DNA of 64,000 nt, taken from a bacterium (GTDB lineage Bacteria; Actinomycetota; Acidimicrobiia; Acidimicrobiales; Bin134). Below, one piece after another: positions 7,465 through 32,510 of this stretch. Made by a program: the position numbers and the translations under genes. The DNA lies in contig JAPOVT010000056.1 in the NCBI GenBank assembly GCA_026708015.1, forward strand, positions 1 to 64,000, written 5' to 3'. The stretch's first letter is position 1. Each line of letters opens with the position of its first letter. The notes below the pieces were generated by a model. That model was not told the origin of the DNA, did not search any database, and saw nothing but the letters and a program-made list of their open reading frames with translations.

Positions 7465-9354
7465 TCACCATCCCACCCGTTGATCGGCTCTGCCGGTGTC
7501 CATGGCGGCCCGGGCGGCCCGCACATCGGCGCTGGCGCTCACCTCGGGCACGCCCACTTCCCAGAACGAGCCGCCCTCGGTCCAGCGGTAAGCATGGGTA
7601 TTCAGGGCGATCACATAGGTGCTCTCGGCGGCCCTGGCCCGGCCGAACGCGGCTTCGAGTTCGGCGATGGAGGTCACGGTCTCGGTTTCGCAGCCCATGG
7701 AGGCGGCGTGGGCTGCGAAGTCAACCGCGGTTGGTTCCTGCACTCGGGAGTCGGCGATGAGGTTGTTGAACGGCACGCCGCCCTGGGCCAGTTGCAGGCG
7801 GTTGATCACCGCGTAGCCGCCGTTGTCGCACACGATGACGATGAGTTTGTGGCCGGTGAGCACCGTGCTATAGAGATCGCTGTTCATCATGAGGTAGGAG
7901 CCGTCTCCCACCAGCACCACCACCTCCCGGTCGGGCAGGGCCATCTTGGCCCCCCATCCGCCGGAGATCTCATAGCCCATGCAGGAGTAGCCGTATTCGC
8001 AATCGAAGGAATGGACGGCCTGGCCCCGCCATCCATTGACCAGCTCGCCGGGGAATCCTCCGGCCGCGGCCAGCACATAGGTGGACTCATCGGCGGCCCG
8101 GTCCACCACTCCCACGACCTGGGCGTAGGTGGGCAGATCGGCGTCGGCCTCGGCATCGTCGGCAGATCGTCCGGCCGCTGCCACCGTCTCGGGGGCGGCG
8201 ATCTTGTCGATGTAGGCGTGGTATTGCGAAGTCTCCGAAGAGGCCCGGTCTGACCACTCCTCGGGGGCCCGGCAATCACCCAGGGCCGCTCCCAGCTCGG
8301 TGAGGCCCTCGCGGGCGTCGGCCACCAGCGGCAGCGAGCGATGCTTGGTGGCGTCGAAGCGGGCCGCGTTCAGACCGATGATCTGCACGTCGTCGCCCCC
8401 ACCGAACACCGTCCACGATCCGGTGACGAAGTCGCCCAGGCGGGTGCCCACCGCCAGCACCACATCGGCCTCGGCAGCCATGGCATTGGCCGAGGTGCAC
8501 CCGGTGACGCCGATGGGGCCGCAATTCAGCCGGTGGTCGGCCACCAGCGAGGTGCGCCCGGCCACCGTCTCCACCACCGGGATGTTGTGGATCTCGGCGA
8601 AAGAGCGCAGCTCGTCTTCAGCCAGCGACCAGTGGACCCCGCCGCCGGCCACGATCAAAGGCCGCTCAGCGGCAACCAGCGCGGCCGCGGCCCGACGAAG
8701 CTCGCGGGTGTCGGGCCGGGGACGGCGGATCTCGTGGATGGCCTCCTCGAAGAAACGGGCGGGGAAGTCGTAGGCCTCGCCCTGGATGTCTTGGGGCAGA
8801 CCGATGAAGGCCGGACCGCAGTCGCCGGGGTCGAGCATGGTATTGACGGCGTTGGGGAGCGACTGGACCAGCTGCTCGGGCGCGGTTATGCGATCCCAGT
8901 AGCGGACTACGGGTCGGAAGGCGTCGTTTGCCGTCACAGTCGGATTGTCGAAGTGCTCCACCTGCTGGAGCACGGGGTCGGGGATGCGGCTGTTGAAGGT
9001 GTCGCCGGCCAACAGCAGCAACGGCATCCGGTTGGCCATGGCCACTGCAGCCGCGGTCACCATGTTGGTGGCACCGGGGCCGATGGAGCTGGTGGCGGCC
9101 ATGATACGGCGGCGGCGGTTGGCCTTGGCGTAGGCCACCGCGGCCAGGGCCATGCCCTGCTCGTTCTGACCCCGCCAGGTGGGCAGCGCCTCGCCGGCCT
9201 GCTCCAGATCATGGCCCAGACAGGTGACGTTGCCGTGGCCGAAAATGGCGAATACTCCTGCGAACAGGGGGACGGCCTGGCCGTCGATCTCGATGCGCTG
9301 GGCCGCCAGATAGCGCACCACGGCCCCCGAGGTTGTCAGGCGGATGGTTTCCAT
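7465..9354 (-). CDS. iolD: 3D-(3,5/4)-trihydroxycyclohexane-1,2-dione hydrolase (ThDP-dependent)
   Basis: A 629-residue thiamine-diphosphate enzyme of the acetolactate synthase superfamily with full IolD length. The N-terminal segment 'ALPTWRGQNEQGMA' carries the catalytic Glu65. The ThDP/Mg motif begins at GDG (483-485) and ends near Asn511. IolD opens the ring of trihydroxycyclohexane-1,2-dione to give 5-deoxy-D-glucuronate. The ATG at 9354 has GAGGG about 6 bases upstream. The gene sits between a Gfo/Idh/MocA gene and the desaturase-Rieske gene in one transcription direction. The ring-opening enzyme is the pathway's most specific marker, so the whole operon can be assigned to cyclitol catabolism with confidence. 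Confidence 0.96.
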   Translation of the reverse strand: METIRLTTSGAVVRYLAAQRIEIDGQAVPLFAGVFAIFGHGNVTCLGHDLEQAGEALPTWRGQNEQGMALAAVAYAKANRRRRIMAATSSIGPGATNMVTAAAVAMANRMPLLLLAGDTFNSRIPDPVLQQVEHFDNPTVTANDAFRPVVRYWDRITAPEQLVQSLPNAVNTMLDPGDCGPAFIGLPQDIQGEAYDFPARFFEEAIHEIRRPRPDTRELRRAAAALVAAERPLIVAGGGVHWSLAEDELRSFAEIHNIPVVETVAGRTSLVADHRLNCGPIGVTGCTSANAMAAEADVVLAVGTRLGDFVTGSWTVFGGGDDVQIIGLNAARFDATKHRSLPLVADAREGLTELGAALGDCRAPEEWSDRASSETSQYHAYIDKIAAPETVAAAGRSADDAEADADLPTYAQVVGVVDRAADESTYVLAAAGGFPGELVNGWRGQAVHSFDCEYGYSCMGYEISGGWGAKMALPDREVVVLVGDGSYLMMNSDLYSTVLTGHKLIVIVCDNGGYAVINRLQLAQGGVPFNNLIADSRVQEPTAVDFAAHAASMGCETETVTSIAELEAAFGRARAAESTYVIALNTHAYRWTEGGSFWEVGVPEVSASADVRAARAAMDTGRADQRVGW

Positions 9355-9367
9355 GGCTGCCCTCCCT

Positions 9368-10543
9368 TCAATCCATCCTCAGCGATACCACATCTTCCCA
9401 GGTGCCGGTCTCCCAGCTCTTCAGCATGGCCGCTTGCACGCTCACACAGGCGAGCGCCTGCTCCATGCCCGCACTGTGAGGCCGCCCCTCGGCCACCGCG
9501 GCGAGGAACTCGTGGTCTTGGATGGCCACCATGTCCTCGAAGCCAATGGAGTTGGCGTCGCCCGGTACGAAGACGCCGTGGAAGGGGTGGCGATCGCTGG
9601 CCCGAACGGTGGTGTAGCCCTGCTGGGGGTCGGACGCCCGGAAAAGCTGGAGTTCGTTCAATGTCTCGTGGTTCCAGCTCAAAGCCCCCTCGGTGCCGTA
9701 GACGTCGAAGGCCATTTGGCTTTGGGGACCGACGATGGCCCGGCTGGCCTCGAACATTCCATGGCTGCCGTTGGCAAACACAGCCAGCGCGCCGAAGTAG
9801 TCCTCGTTGGTGACCTCGCCGGTGGGATCACTGGGGCTGCCTCGGTCGTAGTGGGTCCCTGCCCCTGACGGCAGCGGGCGCTCCTTGATGAAGGTCTCAC
9901 CGATGCCCACCACCCGGGTGATGGGGCCGTTCAGCATCAGGGCCAAATCCACCGCATGGCTCAAGATGTCGGTGGTGGCACCGTGCCCGGCTTGGTCGAT
10001 GAGAAAGCGCCAGGAGAGCAGGCCCATGGGGTCAGCCCCGTACATCGAGAAGAACCGGCCCCGATAGTTGGAGATCTGCCCCAGTTGACCGGTGGCGATG
10101 AGCTCTCGGGCGTAGAGCACCAGGGGGGCGAAGCGGTAGTTGTAGCCCACCCCGGTGACGATCCCGGCCTTGCGGCAGGCCTGGGCGATTCGGGCGGTCT
10201 GGATAGGAGTGCCTCCCACCGGCTTCTCGCAGAACACGTGCTTTCCGGCTTCGGCGGCCGCGGTGGCCAATGGCTCGTGGAGCATGTTGGGAGCGCAGAC
10301 GACGACCACGTCGACGTCGGGATGTTCTATGGCGGGACGCCAATCTTCGGTGGCCTCTCGGAAACCGAAGGCACTGATCGCCGCATGGCGGCGGGACTCC
10401 ACGTTGTCGGAGCAGATCACCAAGTCCACGTCGTAGGCCCGATCCTCGAACAGCGTGGGCAGACGCAGGTAGGAGCGGGTGTGGGCCTGGCCCATCCAGC
10501 CGAAGCCCACAACGGCCAGACCGAGTCGTTTTGGGGAGGTCAC
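9368..10543 (-). CDS. Second Gfo/Idh/MocA-family oxidoreductase
   Basis: A 391-residue NAD(P)-dependent oxidoreductase. Its N-terminal motif is 'LAVVGFGWMGQAHTRSY', the Lys motif is 'CEKPVGG', and the C-terminal substrate domain is longer than that of IolG. The GTG start at 10543 overlaps the stop of the 2-hydroxyacid dehydrogenase (GTGA), indicating translational coupling. The upstream in-frame extension reads through that gene and is a shadow. Two Gfo/Idh/MocA enzymes in one inositol operon usually act on different stereoisomers (for example scyllo- or chiro-inositol) or on a derived keto-sugar. The exact substrate cannot be read from the sequence. Confidence 0.85.
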   Translation of the reverse strand: MTSPKRLGLAVVGFGWMGQAHTRSYLRLPTLFEDRAYDVDLVICSDNVESRRHAAISAFGFREATEDWRPAIEHPDVDVVVVCAPNMLHEPLATAAAEAGKHVFCEKPVGGTPIQTARIAQACRKAGIVTGVGYNYRFAPLVLYARELIATGQLGQISNYRGRFFSMYGADPMGLLSWRFLIDQAGHGATTDILSHAVDLALMLNGPITRVVGIGETFIKERPLPSGAGTHYDRGSPSDPTGEVTNEDYFGALAVFANGSHGMFEASRAIVGPQSQMAFDVYGTEGALSWNHETLNELQLFRASDPQQGYTTVRASDRHPFHGVFVPGDANSIGFEDMVAIQDHEFLAAVAEGRPHSAGMEQALACVSVQAAMLKSWETGTWEDVVSLRMD

Positions 10544-11505
10544 GGCCTGGTCCCTACCCGGCGGTCCACTCCCGGATGGGCTGCGGCAGGGTCGAGCAGG
10601 TGCTCGGGTATGCCGCCCCGCAGCCAGGTGAGAGCCTGGTCCAGCGCTTGGCCAATCAGCCTGACGATCCCCACGGTGGTGGTCGAGGCCACATGGGGGG
10701 TGACGACCACGTTGACGCGGCCCAACAGGGGATGGTCGGGGGGCAGCGGCTCGGGGTCGGTGACGTCGAGGCCCGCGCCGGCCACGTGCCCCGAGTCGAG
10801 GGCGGTCAATAGGGCTTCTTGGTCCAGCAGCGCGCCCCGGGCGCAGTTGATGATGATCACGCCAGGACGCATGGCAGCCAGCGAATCCGAATTGATGATG
10901 TGGCGGGTTTCGGAGGTGGCCGGCGCGTGCAACGACACCACGTCGGCCTCCGTCCAAAGCTGGTCGAGGCCGACCAACTCGCCCACGGGCGCGACCTCGA
11001 GATAGGGGTCGTAGACCAGAAGGCTCATCCCCAATGCCTCGGCGTAGCGCCCCAGAAGAGAGCCGATCCGCCCACAGCCCACCAAACCCAGCACTCGCCC
11101 GTCCAGCTCCAGCGCGCCGGGGCCAGTGAGTCGGCCCGGGCCACCCGCGGTACCGGCGGCCAGGCGAGCTTCGGAACCCTTGAGCCGCTTGGCCACCGAC
11201 AGCATCAGCGCCAAGGCGTGCTCGGCGGTGGAAACCGTGGGGGCGTCGGGGGTGTTACAGGCGGCCACCCCGTGGGCGGCGCAGGCAGCGACATCCACGT
11301 TGTCGTAGCCGATGCCCGAGCGGGCTACCACCTTGAGGTTGGACAGCCGGCGGCAGGCATCGTCGTCCCACGCCCGGTCGGCGGCCACCACCACGCCGTC
11401 GGCGTGCTCTGGGCCGTCAACCAACTCCACATCGGGGGGAATAGCCAACTCTGATGGGGGAGTGCGGTCGATCCAAATCCGGAACTTGTTGCCTGATCCG
11501 GTCAT
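10540..11505 (-). CDS. D-isomer-specific 2-hydroxyacid dehydrogenase
   Basis: A 321-residue member of the PGDH/glyoxylate-reductase family. The NAD-binding motif 'LGLVGCGRIGSLLG' is clear. The catalytic triad is visible as Arg in 'NCARGALLD', Glu in 'DPEPLP' and His in 'VTPHVAS'. It lacks the long C-terminal ACT region of SerA, so it is not the serine-pathway enzyme. It lies between iolC and the second Gfo/Idh/MocA gene, overlapping the latter by four bases. This family is not part of the standard iol pathway. It may reduce a keto-acid by-product or oxidise a side-chain product of methylated or aminated cyclitols (inference). Confidence 0.85.
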   Translation of the reverse strand: MTGSGNKFRIWIDRTPPSELAIPPDVELVDGPEHADGVVVAADRAWDDDACRRLSNLKVVARSGIGYDNVDVAACAAHGVAACNTPDAPTVSTAEHALALMLSVAKRLKGSEARLAAGTAGGPGRLTGPGALELDGRVLGLVGCGRIGSLLGRYAEALGMSLLVYDPYLEVAPVGELVGLDQLWTEADVVSLHAPATSETRHIINSDSLAAMRPGVIIINCARGALLDQEALLTALDSGHVAGAGLDVTDPEPLPPDHPLLGRVNVVVTPHVASTTTVGIVRLIGQALDQALTWLRGGIPEHLLDPAAAHPGVDRRVGTRP

Positions 11506-12552: not shown

Positions 12553-13332
12553 CTATGTACCAGCTTGAGCCAGTTCGTGCTGAAGTGCTTCGAGCTCGGC
12601 ACCACCGGCCATGAGCTGGGTCAGATCAGCTTGCGACAGCTCTTCCTTGGCCCAGTTGCCCATGGACACTCCCCGGTTGAGGATCACAAATCGATCGCCC
12701 ACCGGGTAGGCGTGGTTGGGATTGTGGGTGATGAAAATGACCGCCAAGCCCTGGTCCCGGGCCTCCACAATGCGCCGCAGAACCACGCCCGACTGCTTGA
12801 CGCCCAGCGCTGAGGTGGGCTCGTCGAGGATCAGTACCCGGGCGCCGAAGTAGCTGGCCCGGGCGATGGCCACCGACTGCCGCTCGCCCCCGGAAAGCGT
12901 GCCCACGGGTTGCTCGACGTCGCGGATGTCGATTCCCATCTTGGCCATCTCTTCTTTGGCGATGCGCTTGGCCCCCTCGATGTCAATCTGGCGGAAGGGC
13001 CAGATGCCCGTCTTCGGCTCTGACCCCAAGAAGAAGTTCCGCCACACCGACATGAGCGGCACCATGGCCAAGTCCTGGTACACGGTGGCGATCCCTCGAC
13101 CCAGCGCCTCGCGGGGCGAGTTGAAGCGCACTTCCTGGCCTTCCATCAAGAGCGTGCCCTCGTCGTGCTGATGCACGCCGGCCAGGATCTTGATGAAAGT
13201 GGACTTGCCCGCGCCGTTGTCCCCCAGCACGCAGGTGACCTCGCCGGGATTCACCGTGGTGGTCACGCCGGTGAGGGCGATGATGTTCCCGTAGAACTTC
13301 GAGATGTTGTTGAGTTCGAGGAATTCAGCCAT
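12553..13332 (-). CDS. Sugar/cyclitol ABC importer, ATP-binding subunit
   Basis: A 259-residue single ABC ATPase of the RbsA/XylG class. Walker A is 'GDNGAGKST', the signature is '[14 protein letters not shown]' and Walker B is '[12 protein letters not shown]'. It is half the length of canonical RbsA (about 500 residues, two domains), so it probably works as a homodimer. The ATG at 13332 is preceded by AAGGAG at 8 bases. Together with the permease and binding lipoprotein upstream it makes a complete importer, placed with iol genes and so probably taking up inositol or a derivative. Confidence 0.92.
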
Positions 13333-13384
13333 CAGCAGGTCTCCTTGAGGTTGTTGGTAGTCCGAATTGTCTGCCGGGAGAAAG

Positions 13385-15640
13385 TCATCGGACCTTCTCT
13401 GCTTGAGAGCGCACATAGTTGTTGACCAGCACCGCCACCAGCAGCAAGGCGCCCAACACCAGGAAGCGCCAGTCGCTGTTCCAGGTAGCAAAACCGATAC
13501 CGGAGGTGATCATGCCCCAGATCACCGCGCCGATAGCCGCGCCGATGGCCGATCCATAACCACCGGTAAGCAGACAGCCGCCGACCACGGCCACAATGAT
13601 GTAGCGGAACTCGTTTCCGTCGCCCACGTTGGCCTGCACTGAGTTGAGTCGGAAAGCGATCACCATGCCCGTGACCCAGGCCGACGCCGACACCAGCATG
13701 AACAGCGTGGTCTTGGTACGGGCGGCAGGCACACCCACCGAACGGGAGGCGTCCTTGTTGCCGCCCACGGCGAAAATCCAGTTTCCGAACTGGGTGCGGG
13801 CCAGGACCCAGGCCCCTGCCACTGCAAACAACAAGAAAAGCATCACACCCACGCCGAAGCGAGTCTGGGCCTGGGTAGCGGCCAGTTCTTCGCTGGTGAT
13901 GAACATCAGCTTGGCCGCGATGCCCAGCATCACTGAGCCCAGCCCGACGAAGACCAGCGATCGGCCCACGCTCTCGTCGGAGGTGAACAGCGTGCGGTAG
14001 AGGGTGGCCAAGGCAAAGACCGCGAATGCGACGATGCCCCCCTTGGCCACCGCCATGATGATGCTGTAGAGAATCCCGTCGCCATCGGCCAATTCCAGGA
14101 TCAATGACACGAGTCCTGCGACCAATCCGAGCACTGTCCCGACTTGCCGAGCGAGCGGGCCGTGTGCCGGTGGTGGCGGGGCAGAGGTGCGCCGGGCCGC
14201 GATCAGCCGGGCGACGGCGGAGGCGGCGAGTAGGAGCGCGATCAACAGCAGGGCAGTGAACAGCTCCACCCGCAGCTTTCGGGAGGTGGCCTCCGACTGG
14301 ATGAAGAAGGCCAGTATCACGATGCCCACCGAGGTGAGGAGGGTGAACAATGCCGCTAGCCCTCGGCGCCGGGCGGCAATGCTCAGCAGTACCACCCCCG
14401 CAAGGGCCAAGATGCCGAACAGGATGGCTCGGGCCCCCTGCACGGTGATCATGTAGCTGACGGCGGGGATGAGGGCGATAAGGGCACCGATAGCGGGATA
14501 TCCCACGCTGACCCGGCCCAGCGCGGCCAGCACGGCCAATACCCCGGTGGCGCCAATGCCGATGGCCAACACAGCGCGTCCCGGCGTGCCGGTCAAGAAG
14601 TCGAGGCGGTCGGCATTGTTGGAGTCCATGACGGCGGCGATGAGAATGGCACCGACAATGGCCACAACCCCGGCGATCAGGAACTGGACCACCCGCGGGT
14701 CGTGTTCCGTTGAGGTTGGTTCTCGCTCGGCTGGTTGGTAGCGGGCCAGACACCAGCCAGCCACCGCTGCCAGAACTCCCGCTCCGGTGATGATTCCGAA
14801 TATCCAGTTGGAGCTCTTGCTGTCTTTGCTGAGCAGCAGGATGTAGCCAACTGTCCCGACAGCGGCTCCCACGATGAACATCAAGTATCCGCCCAAGACC
14901 GGTCTCTTCCGGCGAGAGTAGGCCAACTCCATGGTGCCCAGGATCAAGACAACCGCGCCGATGATGAGTAGACCGCTCCAAGCCCAGTCTCTGCTGCTCC
15001 AGAGATTGGTCCAGCCATCGTTCTCCCACACATGGCCGTTTCGGACCCAGGTGGCGCCGAAGATGTTGTCCCAGAACTCGTAGCCGCCCGACCGGTCGAG
15101 ACCTTCAGCGATCACCTTGTTGGTGAACAGCTTGGTGAAGCCGAGCTTGGCCCCGATGAGGATGAAGAACGTGCCCAGGGTGACGATGAAGCTGGGCAGC
15201 GAGGTCTTGTCCACCAGCGTCCCGTTGAACCAGCCGATGGCCAAGGCAAAAGCCAGTGAGAGCGGGACTGCGAGGTGGAGGCTGAGCCCGGCACCGCCCA
15301 ACTCAGCGGTGTCACTGCTCAACAAGACCACAATCACCGCGGTGGCCCCGGTCATGGAGCCGGAGGAGAGGTCGAACTCTCCTCCGATCATCAGCAAGGC
15401 CACCGGTATCGCCATCAAGCCGAGCGTGGCCGCTACGTCCAGATAGTTCGCTGTACCCCCAGCGGTTCCGAATGGGGCCGACACCAGCCAGAACAGCAGC
15501 CAGACTCCGACTGCGCCGATCAGAGCGCCGATCTCCGGTCTGGTCAACAGCTGTTGGACCGGACCTCGGTGGGCTAATCGCTCGTCTTCAACCGACGGCG
15601 AGCTATCCGTAGAGTCAGTCGTAGTGGTCGCGTCGGACAC
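13385..15640 (-). CDS. Oversized RbsC-type ABC permease with a large multi-helix insertion
   Basis: A 751-residue permease, over twice the usual 320-350. Residues about 35-245 match the first half of an RbsC-type permease ('[13 protein letters not shown]', '[13 protein letters not shown]'). Residues 614-751 match the second half ('[20 protein letters not shown]', then '[18 protein letters not shown]'). Between them, about 365 residues contain many additional hydrophobic segments, roughly nine to ten predicted helices, not found in ordinary family members. GTG at 15640 is chosen because GAGAGGGGGG lies just upstream; a TTG at 15679 would add 13 residues without a site. No frameshift or stop breaks it. 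The role of the insertion is unknown. Confidence 0.85.
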
Positions 15641-15709: not shown

Positions 15710-15741
15710 GGAGCGCTGCCCGGATACCCGGGCAGCGCTCC
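15710..15741 (-). terminator. Strong stem-loop between binding-protein and permease genes
   Basis: A perfect 14-base-pair GC-rich stem (15710-15723 with 15728-15741) closes a four-base loop, with T5 on the + strand side and TTTCGTTT on the - strand side. It lies 50 bases after the lipoprotein stop. In importer operons such a structure usually causes partial termination or protects the 3' end of the upstream message, giving more binding protein than permease. Full termination would cut off the permease and all iol genes, so partial readthrough is inferred. Confidence 0.8.
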
Positions 15742-15791: not shown

Positions 15792-16835
15792 TTAGCGGGT
15801 TCCCTGGGAAACCAGCGCCTTGACCTCTGCCGCGTTGGCGGTGTCGACGAAGCCCGGGCCGGTGAGGATGGGCAGGCCGCCACCCGCGGTGTTCAGGTTG
15901 GTGGCTTGCAGGTGCATCAGGATGACCGGCAAGTAGCCCTGGAGGTACTGCTGCTGGTCGACCGTGAAGGCCACATGGCCATCCTCAATCTCATTGATGA
16001 GGTCGCTGGACAGGTCGAAACCGCCGATGATGAGGTCCCTACCGGCTTGCTCGCCGGCAGCAAGGGCCCGCAGGGGCAGGTTCGGACCGACACCGAGCAC
16101 GCCGTCGATGCTCTCATCGCCTTGAAGGATCGCAGCAATGGTGTTCTGCTGCTCATCGGGGGTGGCGTCGAGACCGACGAACTCCGAGGTCACCTGGCCG
16201 TTGAAGGTCTCGGCCAGGCCATTGCAGCGCTCTTCCAGAGCCACGTTGGTCTGCTCCTGGCGGGCGCAGAGCACGTGGGTGGCGCCCAGTGCATTGAACC
16301 GCTCGCCGGCGCCGTTACCGGCCACGGTCTCGGTTTGGCCGATGTGGGTGGTGGCGCCGAGGGCCTTGTAGTTGTTCACACCCGAGTTGAGCGTGTACAG
16401 CGGGATGCCCGCGGCAACCACGGCCTCAGCCGCCGACTGGACGCCAGCCGGATCGGCCAGCGAGATGGCAATACCGCTGGAGCCGGCAGCGATGGCCGCC
16501 TCGATCTCCTGGGCTTGCCTCAGGGCGTCGTTGTTGGAGCCGAAGTAGACGACGTCGCAGCCGATGGCCGCGGCGGCGTCACGCACAGCCACCTCAACCA
16601 CTGACCAGAAGGTGCCGGAGTCACCGTGGGTGATGACGTGGTAGGTGTGGTCGCAACCCTGGGTCGGGTCGACTTCCACGGCCTCCGTCGGCGCTGGAGC
16701 TTCAGTGGCTGGTGCCGCTGCTTCGGTAGGTGCGCTGGGTGCATCCTCGCTGGTGTCATCGTCGTCGTTGCCGCAGGCCGCGACTACGAGCGTGAACGCT
16801 AGGAGCAAAGCAAACAGCTTCCATAGCTTTCTCAT
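15792..16835 (-). CDS. Sugar/cyclitol-binding lipoprotein of the ABC importer
   Basis: A 347-residue periplasmic-binding-protein type 1 (Peripla_BP_4, RbsB-like) lipoprotein. Residues 1-20 are a signal peptide with the lipobox 'VVAAC', followed by an Asp-rich start and an Ala/Pro/Glu/Thr linker that spaces the domain from the membrane. The sugar-binding fold begins near 'YHVITHGDSGTFWSVV'. The ATG at 16835 (18 residues into the longest frame) has GAGAGGGG upstream and gives a proper signal peptide. It is the first transporter gene after the iolE-like gene, and the stem-loop behind it favours high expression. The ligand is probably inositol or a substituted cyclitol. Confidence 0.92.
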   Translation of the reverse strand: MRKLWKLFALLLAFTLVVAACGNDDDDTSEDAPSAPTEAAAPATEAPAPTEAVEVDPTQGCDHTYHVITHGDSGTFWSVVEVAVRDAAAAIGCDVVYFGSNNDALRQAQEIEAAIAAGSSGIAISLADPAGVQSAAEAVVAAGIPLYTLNSGVNNYKALGATTHIGQTETVAGNGAGERFNALGATHVLCARQEQTNVALEERCNGLAETFNGQVTSEFVGLDATPDEQQNTIAAILQGDESIDGVLGVGPNLPLRALAAGEQAGRDLIIGGFDLSSDLINEIEDGHVAFTVDQQQYLQGYLPVILMHLQATNLNTAGGGLPILTGPGFVDTANAAEVKALVSQGTR

Positions 16836-16863
16836 TGTTGGGTTACCCCTCTCAAGGTAGTTG

Positions 16864-17778
16864 TTATTGGTTTTGTGAGGTTCCGGCACCCGCGAGTACG
16901 GGTTCCAGACTGCGCAGGAAATCGATGCTCTGGCGGGCGTCGAACCTCAGCCGAGCTACCGCAGAGGGATCATCCTCTGAGATTGCCGCATCCTGCTCCA
17001 GGACGTACCAGAGGTCGCGTCCTGATTTTTCCAGTAGGTCGACGATCTCGGCGATCGGCAGCCCTCCCTGGCCCAAGGGCGGGAATAGGCCCTGCTGAAC
17101 GCCCTGCATGAGCGACAGCTCTCCCGCCATGACCCGAGCGGCGATGCCCAGGTCGACGTCTTTGATGTGTACAAGTGCGACGCGATCCAGATAGCGCTTG
17201 GTCATGTCCAGGACGTCAGCGCCCCCCAACAGAAAATGCGCGGTGTCGAGCACCAGCGCGGTATCGCTGATTTCCAGTACGCGCTCGGCTTCCCCTGCGG
17301 TCTCCACCAGGCATCCAAAATGGGGATGGAGGGCCTGGGTCAGACCGTGGTCGCCGGCTACTCGCCCTACTCCGGCCAAAGCGTCGGCCACGATTCGCCA
17401 TTCGTGATCGGCCAGCGGCTCTTGGCGCCAGTCCTCCAAGTGGCTGACCACACAGGTGACAAAGAAGCCACCGCCTCCACCGGCGATCAGCGCCGCAGAC
17501 TCAGCAGCCGAGGCCAGGGTGCTCCTGATTTGAAGTGGATCGTGCAGAACCAAGGGGACGAAGCCCCCGAGCAGCGACAGATTGTGGCTCTCGAGTACGG
17601 CTCGCAGGTCGCCGGGATCGGTGGGCAAATACCCGAGTGACCCAAGCTCGGTATGGGTGAACCCGGCCTTGGACATCTCCGTCAGCACGGCTTCAACAGG
17701 AAGCTGAAATCCCCAGCCGGGCATCTCGCAGACGCCCCAACTGATAGGCGCGGTCGCGGTTCGCTCAAACAGTGTCAT
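16864..17778 (-). CDS. iolE: IolE/MocC-like TIM-barrel, probable inosose dehydratase
   Basis: A 304-residue AP-endonuclease-2-type TIM barrel (sugar phosphate isomerase/epimerase superfamily). The N-terminus 'ISWGVCEMPGWGFQLP' resembles IolE's start. Metal-ligand candidates are Glu in 'HTELGSLGYLP', Asp and His in 'LVLDTAHF', His in 'VHIKDVD' and Glu in 'YVLEQDA'. IolE dehydrates 2-keto-myo-inositol to trihydroxycyclohexane-1,2-dione. This is the only IolE candidate in the cluster, supporting the call, though MocC-type proteins are equally similar. The ATG at 17778 gives the canonical length, with a GGAGGGG site rather far (about 15 bases) upstream. It is the first gene after the predicted operon promoter. 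Confidence 0.8.
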   Translation of the reverse strand: MTLFERTATAPISWGVCEMPGWGFQLPVEAVLTEMSKAGFTHTELGSLGYLPTDPGDLRAVLESHNLSLLGGFVPLVLHDPLQIRSTLASAAESAALIAGGGGGFFVTCVVSHLEDWRQEPLADHEWRIVADALAGVGRVAGDHGLTQALHPHFGCLVETAGEAERVLEISDTALVLDTAHFLLGGADVLDMTKRYLDRVALVHIKDVDLGIAARVMAGELSLMQGVQQGLFPPLGQGGLPIAEIVDLLEKSGRDLWYVLEQDAAISEDDPSAVARLRFDARQSIDFLRSLEPVLAGAGTSQNQ

Positions 17779-17819
17779 GTGCGCGCCGAATCCCCTCCTT
17801 CGCGCCCCTCCAAAGCCCC

Positions 17820-18529: not shown

Positions 18530-25582
<7,053 letters not shown>

Positions 25583-30250: not shown

Positions 30251-31494
30251 CCGAGCCGGCGGTCGCGATGGACTGGGACAGGATCCGTGTCGCCATACCC
30301 CGGGTGGTGGAAGCCGGGTTCGCGATCTTCGTGGTCATCATTTTGGGCGCGGTGATGACGGTCAAGTCCGACGTGTTCCTGACCACCGGCAACCTCCAGA
30401 ACATCCTTCTGCAAACCTCGTTCTTGGCCTGCGCGGCCTTTGGGATGACCCTGGTCATCATCGCGGCCGAACTAGATCTGTCCCAGGGGTCCGTGCTGGC
30501 CCTCATCGGGGTGGTGGCGGCCGAGACCATGGTGCGGAACAACAGCATTGTGCTCGGCTTGCTGGCCGGTGTGGGCGTGGGCATCGCCGCTGGACTGTTC
30601 AACGGGCTCATCACCGCGGTGCTCAAAGTCCCGTCGTTCATCACCACCTTGGGGCTTCTGATCATGGCGAGGGGATTGGCCCGTGAAATCACCGCGGGCA
30701 ACACGGTGGGCAACCTCCCTGGCGGCTGGAAGGCGTGGTGGAGCGGAGAGTTCATCGGCTTGCGAATGCCCATTTGGGTCGCGCTGGGCCTTGGCGTGGT
30801 CTACCACGTGATCCTGCGCTATTCCCGGTTCGGACTGCGGATCTACGCAGTGGGGGGGAACGCCGAAGCAGCCCGCCGGGCCGGAATCAACGTCACCAGA
30901 GTGCGGGTCACGGTGTTTGTGCTGGGAGGACTCGCCGTCGCGGTCGGAGGCTTCACCCTGCTGGGCCGGGTCAATGTCGGCCAGCCCAACGCCGCGGTGC
31001 TTACTGAGCTCTATGCGGTGGCCGCGGTCGTTCTCGGAGGCACCAACCTGTTCGGAGGACGGGGATCAATACCCCGCACCCTTGCCGGGGTGTTGCTGAT
31101 CGGGGTGATTCGCAACAGCCTCAACCTGCTCAATGTGTCGTCCAACATGCAGGACGTGTGGCTGGGCGTTGTCTTCGTGCTGGCCATGACCTCACAATTC
31201 CTGCGCCGCTACTTGGACCGCTGGGCCAATCGAAGCGAGGACACCGCCATTGAAGTCGAAGTCGAGCACGAACTCGATGAAGAACGTCGCGCCATCGAAC
31301 GGGCCGAGCAATCGGCCCGATCGGGCGAGAGAGAACTCCAAGATGCCGACCAGACCGAGCAATCGGCCCGATCGGGCGAGAGAGAACTCCAAGATGCCGA
31401 CCAGACCGAGCAATCGGCCCGATCGGGCGAGAGAGAACTCCAAGATGCCGACCAGACCGAGCAATCGGCCCTGTCGACGTCGGAGCAACCATAA
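30247..31494 (+). CDS. RbsC-type ABC permease with a tandem-repeat cytoplasmic tail
   Basis: A 415-residue permease (BPD_transp_2). The first half shows 'AAELDLSQGSVLALIGV' and 'VPSFITTLGLLIMARG'; the second half has 'RIYAVGGNAEAARRAGIN' and 'LGGTNLFGGRGS', followed by the last helices. After about residue 325 a charged tail contains three exact copies of a 17-residue unit plus part of a fourth, which ordinary RbsC proteins lack. The GTG at 30247 overlaps the creatininase stop and fixes the start. It works with the binding protein at 31515 and the ATPase at 40184, so the importer genes are split by catabolic genes. Confidence 0.92.
   Translation: MTEPAVAMDWDRIRVAIPRVVEAGFAIFVVIILGAVMTVKSDVFLTTGNLQNILLQTSFLACAAFGMTLVIIAAELDLSQGSVLALIGVVAAETMVRNNSIVLGLLAGVGVGIAAGLFNGLITAVLKVPSFITTLGLLIMARGLAREITAGNTVGNLPGGWKAWWSGEFIGLRMPIWVALGLGVVYHVILRYSRFGLRIYAVGGNAEAARRAGINVTRVRVTVFVLGGLAVAVGGFTLLGRVNVGQPNAAVLTELYAVAAVVLGGTNLFGGRGSIPRTLAGVLLIGVIRNSLNLLNVSSNMQDVWLGVVFVLAMTSQFLRRYLDRWANRSEDTAIEVEVEHELDEERRAIERAEQSARSGERELQDADQTEQSARSGERELQDADQTEQSARSGERELQDADQTEQSALSTSEQP
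31306..31470 (+). repeat. 51-base tandem repeat, three exact copies plus 12 bases
   Basis: Units run 31306-31356, 31357-31407 and 31408-31458 with no differences, followed by a partial copy (31459-31470). The unit keeps frame (17 codons) and encodes 'EQSARSGERELQDADQT'. Each unit contains the palindrome CCCGATCGGG. Copy number is likely to vary between strains by slippage. Confidence 0.95.
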
Positions 31495-31514
31495 ACACCC
31501 GGAGGGGAACCACA

Positions 31515-32510
31515 ATGAAAACCAAAAAACTGTTGTTCAAACTTCTGGCGCTGCTGTTGGCCTTTGGGCTGGTGGTGTCGGCCTGTGGCAACGACGATGA
31601 CGACGACGCCGCGTCCGGTGACGGAGGCTGTGAGGAGATCTACGAGGTGCGATACGCCAACCTGGCGACCTTCATCTTGTACTTCCGCGACCTCGAAGCT
31701 GGCCTGGCCGAGTTCGGCGCCCAGAACTGCTGGAACTTCGTCGCCGCCGACGCTGCGTACGTGATTGAAGACCAAGTGGCTCAGATCGAGGACTTCGTCA
31801 CCCAGGGGGTCGACCTCATCATCGCCTCGCCTGGCGACCGCCAAGCGCTCATTCCCGCATATGAAGCCGCTGCGGCTGCCGGCATCCCCATGCTGTCTAC
31901 TGGCGACAGCGTGCAGGAGGCCGCCCCGGAGATCGGCTTCATCGGCACTGACTGGGGTGTTGAGGGCACCAAGCAGAGCGAGTGGATGGTCGAACAACTC
32001 GGCGGATCGGGCAAGATCGCCCGGATCGGCGGACCGGGGGCCAGCGAGTATGTGGAGAAGCGGCGCGAGGGCTTCGAGCACACCATGGAGGCCAATCCCG
32101 GCGTCGAGGTGGTGTTCAACCAGAGCGCCAACAGCTTCACCGCTGAAGAGGGCCTCCGTTTGGCTCAGGACGCGCTGACCGCCAATCCCGACCTCGACGG
32201 AATATGGGCCGACAGCGACGCTCTGGCATTGGGCGCGGCCACCGCAGTGGAAGAGGCCGGCATCGACCATGCCGACATCCTCGTCACCGGTACCGACGGC
32301 GAGCCGGCGGTGTTCGATCAGATTCGGGCTGGTACCGGCGTGGATATGACCATCGCCCTGCGGGGCTACCAGTGGGGTTGGCAGACTGCCGAAGTCGCCC
32401 ACCAGTACCTCACTACCGGCAGCACTGGCCAGGGATACTTCATCCAGGCCCCCACCTTCGTGGTGGATGCCGACACTATCGAAGGCATGACCAACGCCGA
32501 CCTCCGGTAG
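31515..32510 (+). CDS. Substrate-binding lipoprotein of sugar-type ABC importer
   Basis: A 331-residue Peripla_BP_4 (RbsB-like) lipoprotein. Signal peptide with lipobox 'VVSAC' ends at about residue 24 and is followed by an Asp-rich stretch. The fold has the usual two lobes: 'DLIIASPGDRQALIPAYEAA' in the first and 'GIWADSDALALGAATAVEEA' in the second. ATG at 31515 with GGAGGGG upstream. It begins 20 bases after the permease. The family binds monosaccharides, polyols, autoinducer-2 and similar polar molecules, so the operon's substrate is likely to be of that kind. Confidence 0.93.
   Translation: MKTKKLLFKLLALLLAFGLVVSACGNDDDDDAASGDGGCEEIYEVRYANLATFILYFRDLEAGLAEFGAQNCWNFVAADAAYVIEDQVAQIEDFVTQGVDLIIASPGDRQALIPAYEAAAAAGIPMLSTGDSVQEAAPEIGFIGTDWGVEGTKQSEWMVEQLGGSGKIARIGGPGASEYVEKRREGFEHTMEANPGVEVVFNQSANSFTAEEGLRLAQDALTANPDLDGIWADSDALALGAATAVEEAGIDHADILVTGTDGEPAVFDQIRAGTGVDMTIALRGYQWGWQTAEVAHQYLTTGSTGQGYFIQAPTFVVDADTIEGMTNADLR

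Follow-up and report, generated by a model that had tools for sequence, protein, structure and literature searches.

A predicted twelve-helix hairpin array, gained once within Acidimicrobiia, in the outward loop of an RbsC-type importer permease

Permeases of RbsC-type ABC importers are commonly regarded as having an unvarying set of ten helices, and many Acidimicrobiia use a version with about double that number. What is the additional membrane block, how did it arise and what could it do? We examined these questions for one such permease, encoded in a window of 64,000 nucleotides (the whole stretch of DNA that was analysed). A sequence-only reading had described it as an RbsC-type permease with a membrane insertion that would double the number of spans and could add a regulatory, lipid-facing or second transport unit. 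The gene and its parts are:

13385..15640 (including the stop codon), minus strand: permease gene, RbsC/BPD_transp_2 type with a 12-helix insert, 751 aa
15646..15656, minus strand: ribosome-binding-site-like AGAGAGGGGGG, 5 bases upstream of the permease GTG start (read in the sequence)
15053..15586, minus strand: core part 1, residues 19–196, core helices 1–5 and the beginning of the outward loop (alignment with ordinary permeases, AlphaFold)
13859..15052, minus strand: insert, residues ∼197–594, predicted to form 12 membrane helices and placed in the core helix 5–6 loop (alignment, hydropathy, AlphaFold)
13388..13858, minus strand: core part 2, residues 595–751, core helices 6–10 and the coupling region (alignment with ordinary permeases, AlphaFold)

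The window protein is an RbsC-type (PF02653) ABC permease. Its frame starts with GTG and runs through 751 codons with zero internal stops, and the product matches Pfam BPD_transp_2 (PF02653) in two stretches at 118 bits, the gathering cut-off being 26.8. The best NCBIfam permease equivalogs also gave two-stretch matches, with scores far under their cut-offs. In alignment both halves are ∼50% identical to ordinary actinobacterial permeases of ∼340 aa and a single block differs, while the AlphaFold model contains the ten-helix core of PF02653 permeases besides the insert. Both the proposed identity and a membrane insertion in an uninterrupted frame were therefore borne out.

The borders of the insert were set with an alignment of the window protein, 20 long relatives and 7 ordinary ones. 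Approximately 400 residues stand where ordinary permeases have an outward-facing loop of ∼20 residues between core helices 5 and 6, and they fall inside the loop pattern of the ordinary relatives (roughly ‘GF..A..IFA....GG.F.V.ILWW’). The borders first suggested, 248 and 613, lay ∼50 and ∼20 residues too C-terminal, and residues 35–245, which had all been assigned to the permease, include the first inserted helix (217–240).

The structure of the permease was predicted with AlphaFold as a template-free monomer, giving a mean pLDDT of 84.3 and a pTM of 0.82 with an alignment of 60 sequences, where the insert part rests on 21 insert sequences; this run superseded one with the 21 insert sequences alone, which gave a poor pLDDT of 57. 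Twelve membrane helices are predicted within the insert (217–240, 249–271, 275–300, 315–337, 352–373, 382–397, 400–425, 429–450, 454–480, 495–518, 523–552 and 558–579), in agreement with hydropathy averaged across relatives, and Lys/Arg counts are generally higher in the insert loops predicted to be cytoplasmic. In the window copy the insert is predicted to enter and leave the membrane at the outer face. With 12 inserted helices, as the model and the charge distribution indicate, the window permease would have 22 helices instead of 10, and the suggested doubling of membrane spans is upheld by hydropathy and AlphaFold.

Distinct, intact orthologues bearing the insert numbered 47, comprising 20 long ones from a scan of genome contigs and additional ones from whole-genome searches; each lies in a single open frame and all are from Acidimicrobiia. 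A profile of the insert matched 37 of the 395 sampled genomes of the class, two of them weakly, and every frame with a strong match was 620–826 aa long, except one at a contig edge. Carrier genomes that consist of a single contig include G322, G157 and G399. Among 397 genomes drawn from the phylum the profile matched three, all Acidimicrobiia, plus one weak match of 41 residues. The insert was also sought as a family of its own, and was not found as such in the 395 class genomes or the 397 phylum genomes.

In a tree of the core, with the insert left out, all 47 insert-bearing proteins lie on one side of one branch (support 100/99), which was recovered in 100% of 200 bootstrap trees. The ordinary permeases of Actinobacteria and of other Acidimicrobiia lie outside this clade, and zero insert-free members are nested within it. 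The hairpin array was gained once within the class, in the same loop throughout, and our confidence in the anatomy, single origin and distribution of the insert is high. The nearest insert-free permease is L147 (G265:C17), a 359-aa frame on a long branch; its C-terminal part is 59% identical, and it provides a useful natural short-loop counterpart of the insert clade.

Insert lengths are stepped, at about 294–304, 341–377 and 401–417 residues, plus a single insert of 536. Hairpin numbers of 4, 5 or 6 were assigned from these lengths (the longest insert via alignment), and array length changes by entire hairpins, with at least six changes of number required on the core tree. The elements of the window copy, which has the optional hairpin i5-i6 and the i10-i11 hairpin of its own clade, are:

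14828..14992, minus strand: hairpin A, i1-i2, residues 217–271, a repeat unit that opens with R217 (invariant) and D218 (conserved)
14630..14818, minus strand: hairpin B, i3-i4, residues 275–337, with invariant R300; weak kinship to hairpin A
14450..14587, minus strand: optional hairpin i5-i6, residues 352–397, filled in 26 of 47 relatives
14291..14443, minus strand: hairpin D, i7-i8, residues 400–450, with a T399/Q401/R404 motif at its outer end
14201..14281, minus strand: helix i9, residues 454–480, first half of hairpin C, with invariant R457
13985..14158, minus strand: hairpin i10-i11, residues 495–552, sitting within hairpin C, in 12 of 47 relatives
13904..13969, minus strand: helix i12, residues 558–579, second half of hairpin C, leading to invariant E585 and core helix 6

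The 12 carriers of i10-i11 are the clade of the window's genus and the sister group of that clade.

Profiles of the inserted hairpins were compared among themselves and against core hairpins, ordinary permeases and permeases of the XylH type. In hhalign, hairpin A matched hairpin C (i9 plus i12) with a probability of 94% (E 1.8e-7), the A-B and B-C matches being weaker (62% and 50%). With the hairpin A profile, hairpin C of L108 was also recovered at 1.4e-7 and that of several other relatives near 1e-5. Controls in which columns were shuffled never attained the observed score (0 of 60) when hairpin A was set against B, i7-i8 or i9-i10, and gave no support for kinship among the remaining pairs. 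Judged from these profiles, at least two, and probably three, of the four shared hairpins descend by old duplication from a single unit. Recent tandem duplication of hairpins was considered for L107, L110 and L024 but not demonstrated: simple alignments gave z = 5.1, 3.0 and 0.7, and shuffles equalled or exceeded the score each time. Core-hairpin profiles searched against the insert gave no match below about 0.01.

A search of Pfam with the window insert returned zero matches. When 21 inserts were run through hmmscan, scattered weak matches to differing families appeared, each in at most 3 of the 21 members (the best being Bax1-I, 5.9e-7, in two members), and no family was common to most; we take these as noise of helix composition. 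Profile searches of the PDB with the insert and with the entire protein yielded nothing significant. In the PDB, Foldseek gave no match at E ≤ 0.001, the core included, and every listed match had an rmsd above 20 Å, so that this comparison is uninformative.

The genetic context of the permease was examined next to that of its relatives. The operon runs in the order HAD hydrolase, IolE-like protein, binding lipoprotein, permease, ATPase, IolC, 2-hydroxyacid dehydrogenase, Gfo/Idh, IolD, and includes:

16864..17796, minus strand: IolE-like inosose dehydratase, under cut-off
15792..16889, minus strand: partner substrate-binding lipoprotein, Peripla_BP_4
12553..13383, minus strand: partner ATPase, single nucleotide-binding domain, 276 aa
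11540..12520, minus strand: IolC-type kinase, above the NCBIfam cut-off (IolC_N, 341 bits against 300)
9368..10558, minus strand: Gfo/Idh-family dehydrogenase, IolG-like, under cut-off
7465..9354, minus strand: IolD, above the NCBIfam cut-off (838 bits against 715), marking the operon as inositol catabolism

Among NCBIfam models the lipoprotein scores best with that of the rhizopine-binding protein, its 190.7 bits falling short of the cut-off of 420. The core of the operon order is kept in most insert-bearing loci (L151, L157 and L158 are also insert carriers) and in many insert-free ones, and the partners of the insert-bearing permease are those of its insert-free relatives. Because of this context myo-inositol, or else a cyclitol related to it, is the most likely substrate, and we attach fairly high confidence to an inositol-type function of the importer, as suggested by the neighbouring genes. 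A hairpin of very high stability lies at 15710–15741 (minus strand), between the genes for the binding protein and the permease, and a T-rich stretch comes after it; the region folds at ∼−40 kcal/mol over 81 nt (z −7.1 against shuffles) and may lower or stabilise the transcript between the two genes.

Other genes of the window were noted in passing. At 21157–24441 (minus strand) lies the frame of an NAD-dependent DNA ligase of 1094 aa, with two HHH_2 matches and extra sequence; such ligases are usually about 670–700 aa long, and this one may hold a duplicated helix-hairpin-helix part. Adjoining it at 18530–21160 (minus strand) is a secreted-looking protein of 876 aa with RCC1-like CGLR-DG---CWG repeats (13 stretches). 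A second RbsC-type permease, at 30295–32510 (plus strand), is ordinary and insert-free, has its own binding protein and ends in a tail with a repeated ‘DQTEQSARSGERELQDA’ peptide.

What, then, might the array do? Insert columns conserved at 80% or more are all glycine or alanine at mid-membrane, with none polar, and conserved polar columns are located in loops and at helix ends, mostly at the outer face. Invariant residues of the insert include R217, R300, T399, Q401, R404, R457, R484 and E585. Since conserved polar residues are mostly outer and none is mid-membrane, a role at the outer face is favoured and a second transport path disfavoured; this is the chief argument on both points, though an indirect one. 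Our best overall explanation, to which we assign a probability of roughly 0.42, is a myo-inositol-type importer permease with a once-gained collar array that would aid docking or the outward gate. Transport would be mechanistically ordinary, the substrate being carried by the core, and the array would be embedded in the lipid as a collar that surrounds each core or lies next to it. The outer surface of the array beside the gate loop (W198, R200, N201, H203, R217, D218, D273, N278, D339, T399, Q401, R404, K455, R457 and E585) could help to dock the binding lipoprotein or stabilise the outward gate. Helix interiors would need merely to be apolar and packable, which would make fast change and the gain or loss of hairpins possible. 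The second transport unit raised by the sequence-only reading is not supported; a structural element embedded in the lipid, its conserved face turned outward, fits better.

Taken by itself, the collar, docking or gating role is put forward tentatively, at somewhat below even odds. It is doubtful that the array represents a new membrane module, grown partly by duplication in the gate loop, that as a collar would control lipoprotein docking or outer gating while its count of helices could vary in evolution. Conservation of the outer surface could instead reflect folding or topology signals (charged helix ends) rather than docking, and a changing hairpin number is also expected of a loosely constrained, nearly functionless expansion. 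Permissive expansion of the loop is the main rival to the collar, and we consider it unlikely: the array would have grown by insertion and duplication and been kept mainly since it could not be cleanly lost, with little function beyond folding. Among close relatives dN/dS is 0.09–0.34 for the insert and 0.014–0.049 for the core, showing that the insert is under purifying but relaxed selection and evolves several-fold faster than the core. This excess over the core, the six or more changes of hairpin number and the single hairpin that XylH has in the same loop all suit such an expansion; so does the fact that ordinary relatives whose operons have the same context function with no array, which is also a counterpoint to docking or gating. 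However, ∼300–540 residues with invariant positions have been kept in 47 distinct orthologues, the dN/dS of the insert is well under 1, and the clade contains no insert-free member.

A regulatory or sensory membrane domain, in which the array would sense membrane, lipid or a partner protein and tune import, is less probable again. Its position as a large conserved domain at the gate loop is consistent with such a role, as are the charged invariant or near-invariant residues at cytoplasmic ends too (E238, R243, R300 and R484), but no known sensor family was matched in Pfam or the PDB, and among nine window genes tested no partner was peculiar to insert loci except in the closest relatives. Twelve extra helices would suffice for a pathway, yet a second transport unit fused into the permease is very improbable given a mid-membrane zone with no conserved polar or charged residue, the absence of a shared match to any transporter family in Pfam or the PDB, fast evolution and a helix number that varies. 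Although the size excess is about that of one extra permease, the insert is with near certainty neither a duplicated permease half, as its hairpin profiles match neither core helices nor ordinary permeases, nor an assembly join, misassembly fusion or frameshift, which the 47 distinct intact copies and the single-contig genomes rule out. Both conditions that the sequence-only reading had named as its own refutation, a duplicated half and an assembly join, were checked and failed.

The collar reading can be set against several known systems. Inositol-operon permeases of Actinobacteria (∼340 aa; for example L044 of Solirubrobacter, L028 of Nonomuraea and L147 of genome G265) have the same core at ∼50% identity and share the order binding protein, permease, ATPase, many adjoining IolE/IolC/IolD. 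Their loop has ∼20 residues and no extra helices, whereas that of the insert clade has ∼300–540 residues. The IbpA-IatA-IatP importer of the alphaproteobacterium Caulobacter, in which each of three genes is reported as required for growth on myo-inositol, is of the same system type; compared by description, no such insert appears in the account of that system (PMC2597717). One extra hairpin occupies the same loop in XylH of E. coli and in XylH-like proteins from Acidimicrobiia, against 4–6 in the insert clade, and because XylH carries it this loop is known to tolerate a hairpin. Against the XylH/GguB model (NF040906) the window protein scores 88.1 bits, under the cut-off of 450, which the Acidimicrobiia and E. 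coli sequences likewise do not reach. Derivation of the array from a XylH-type hairpin was considered, and is ruled against by the lack of any match between the inserted-hairpin profiles and the XylH hairpin.

E. coli RbsC and the type II importers have the ten-helix core in common with the window permease, and a homodimer is expected. For type II importers a dimer of 20 helices has been described in B. subtilis (PMC11466899); the window permease, with 22 predicted helices per subunit, would have 44 if homodimeric. No published description of the hairpin array was found in the open-licence literature searched. The array is an unusual, once-gained and evolving membrane addition to an ordinary importer, with no counterpart among known Pfam or PDB families, and it bears on how membrane proteins grow by entire hairpins and on the extra membrane mass that transporters tolerate. 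It lies next to the outer gate, its operon is ordinary in other respects and close insert-free relatives exist, so that it offers a natural comparison for the role of the gate loop.
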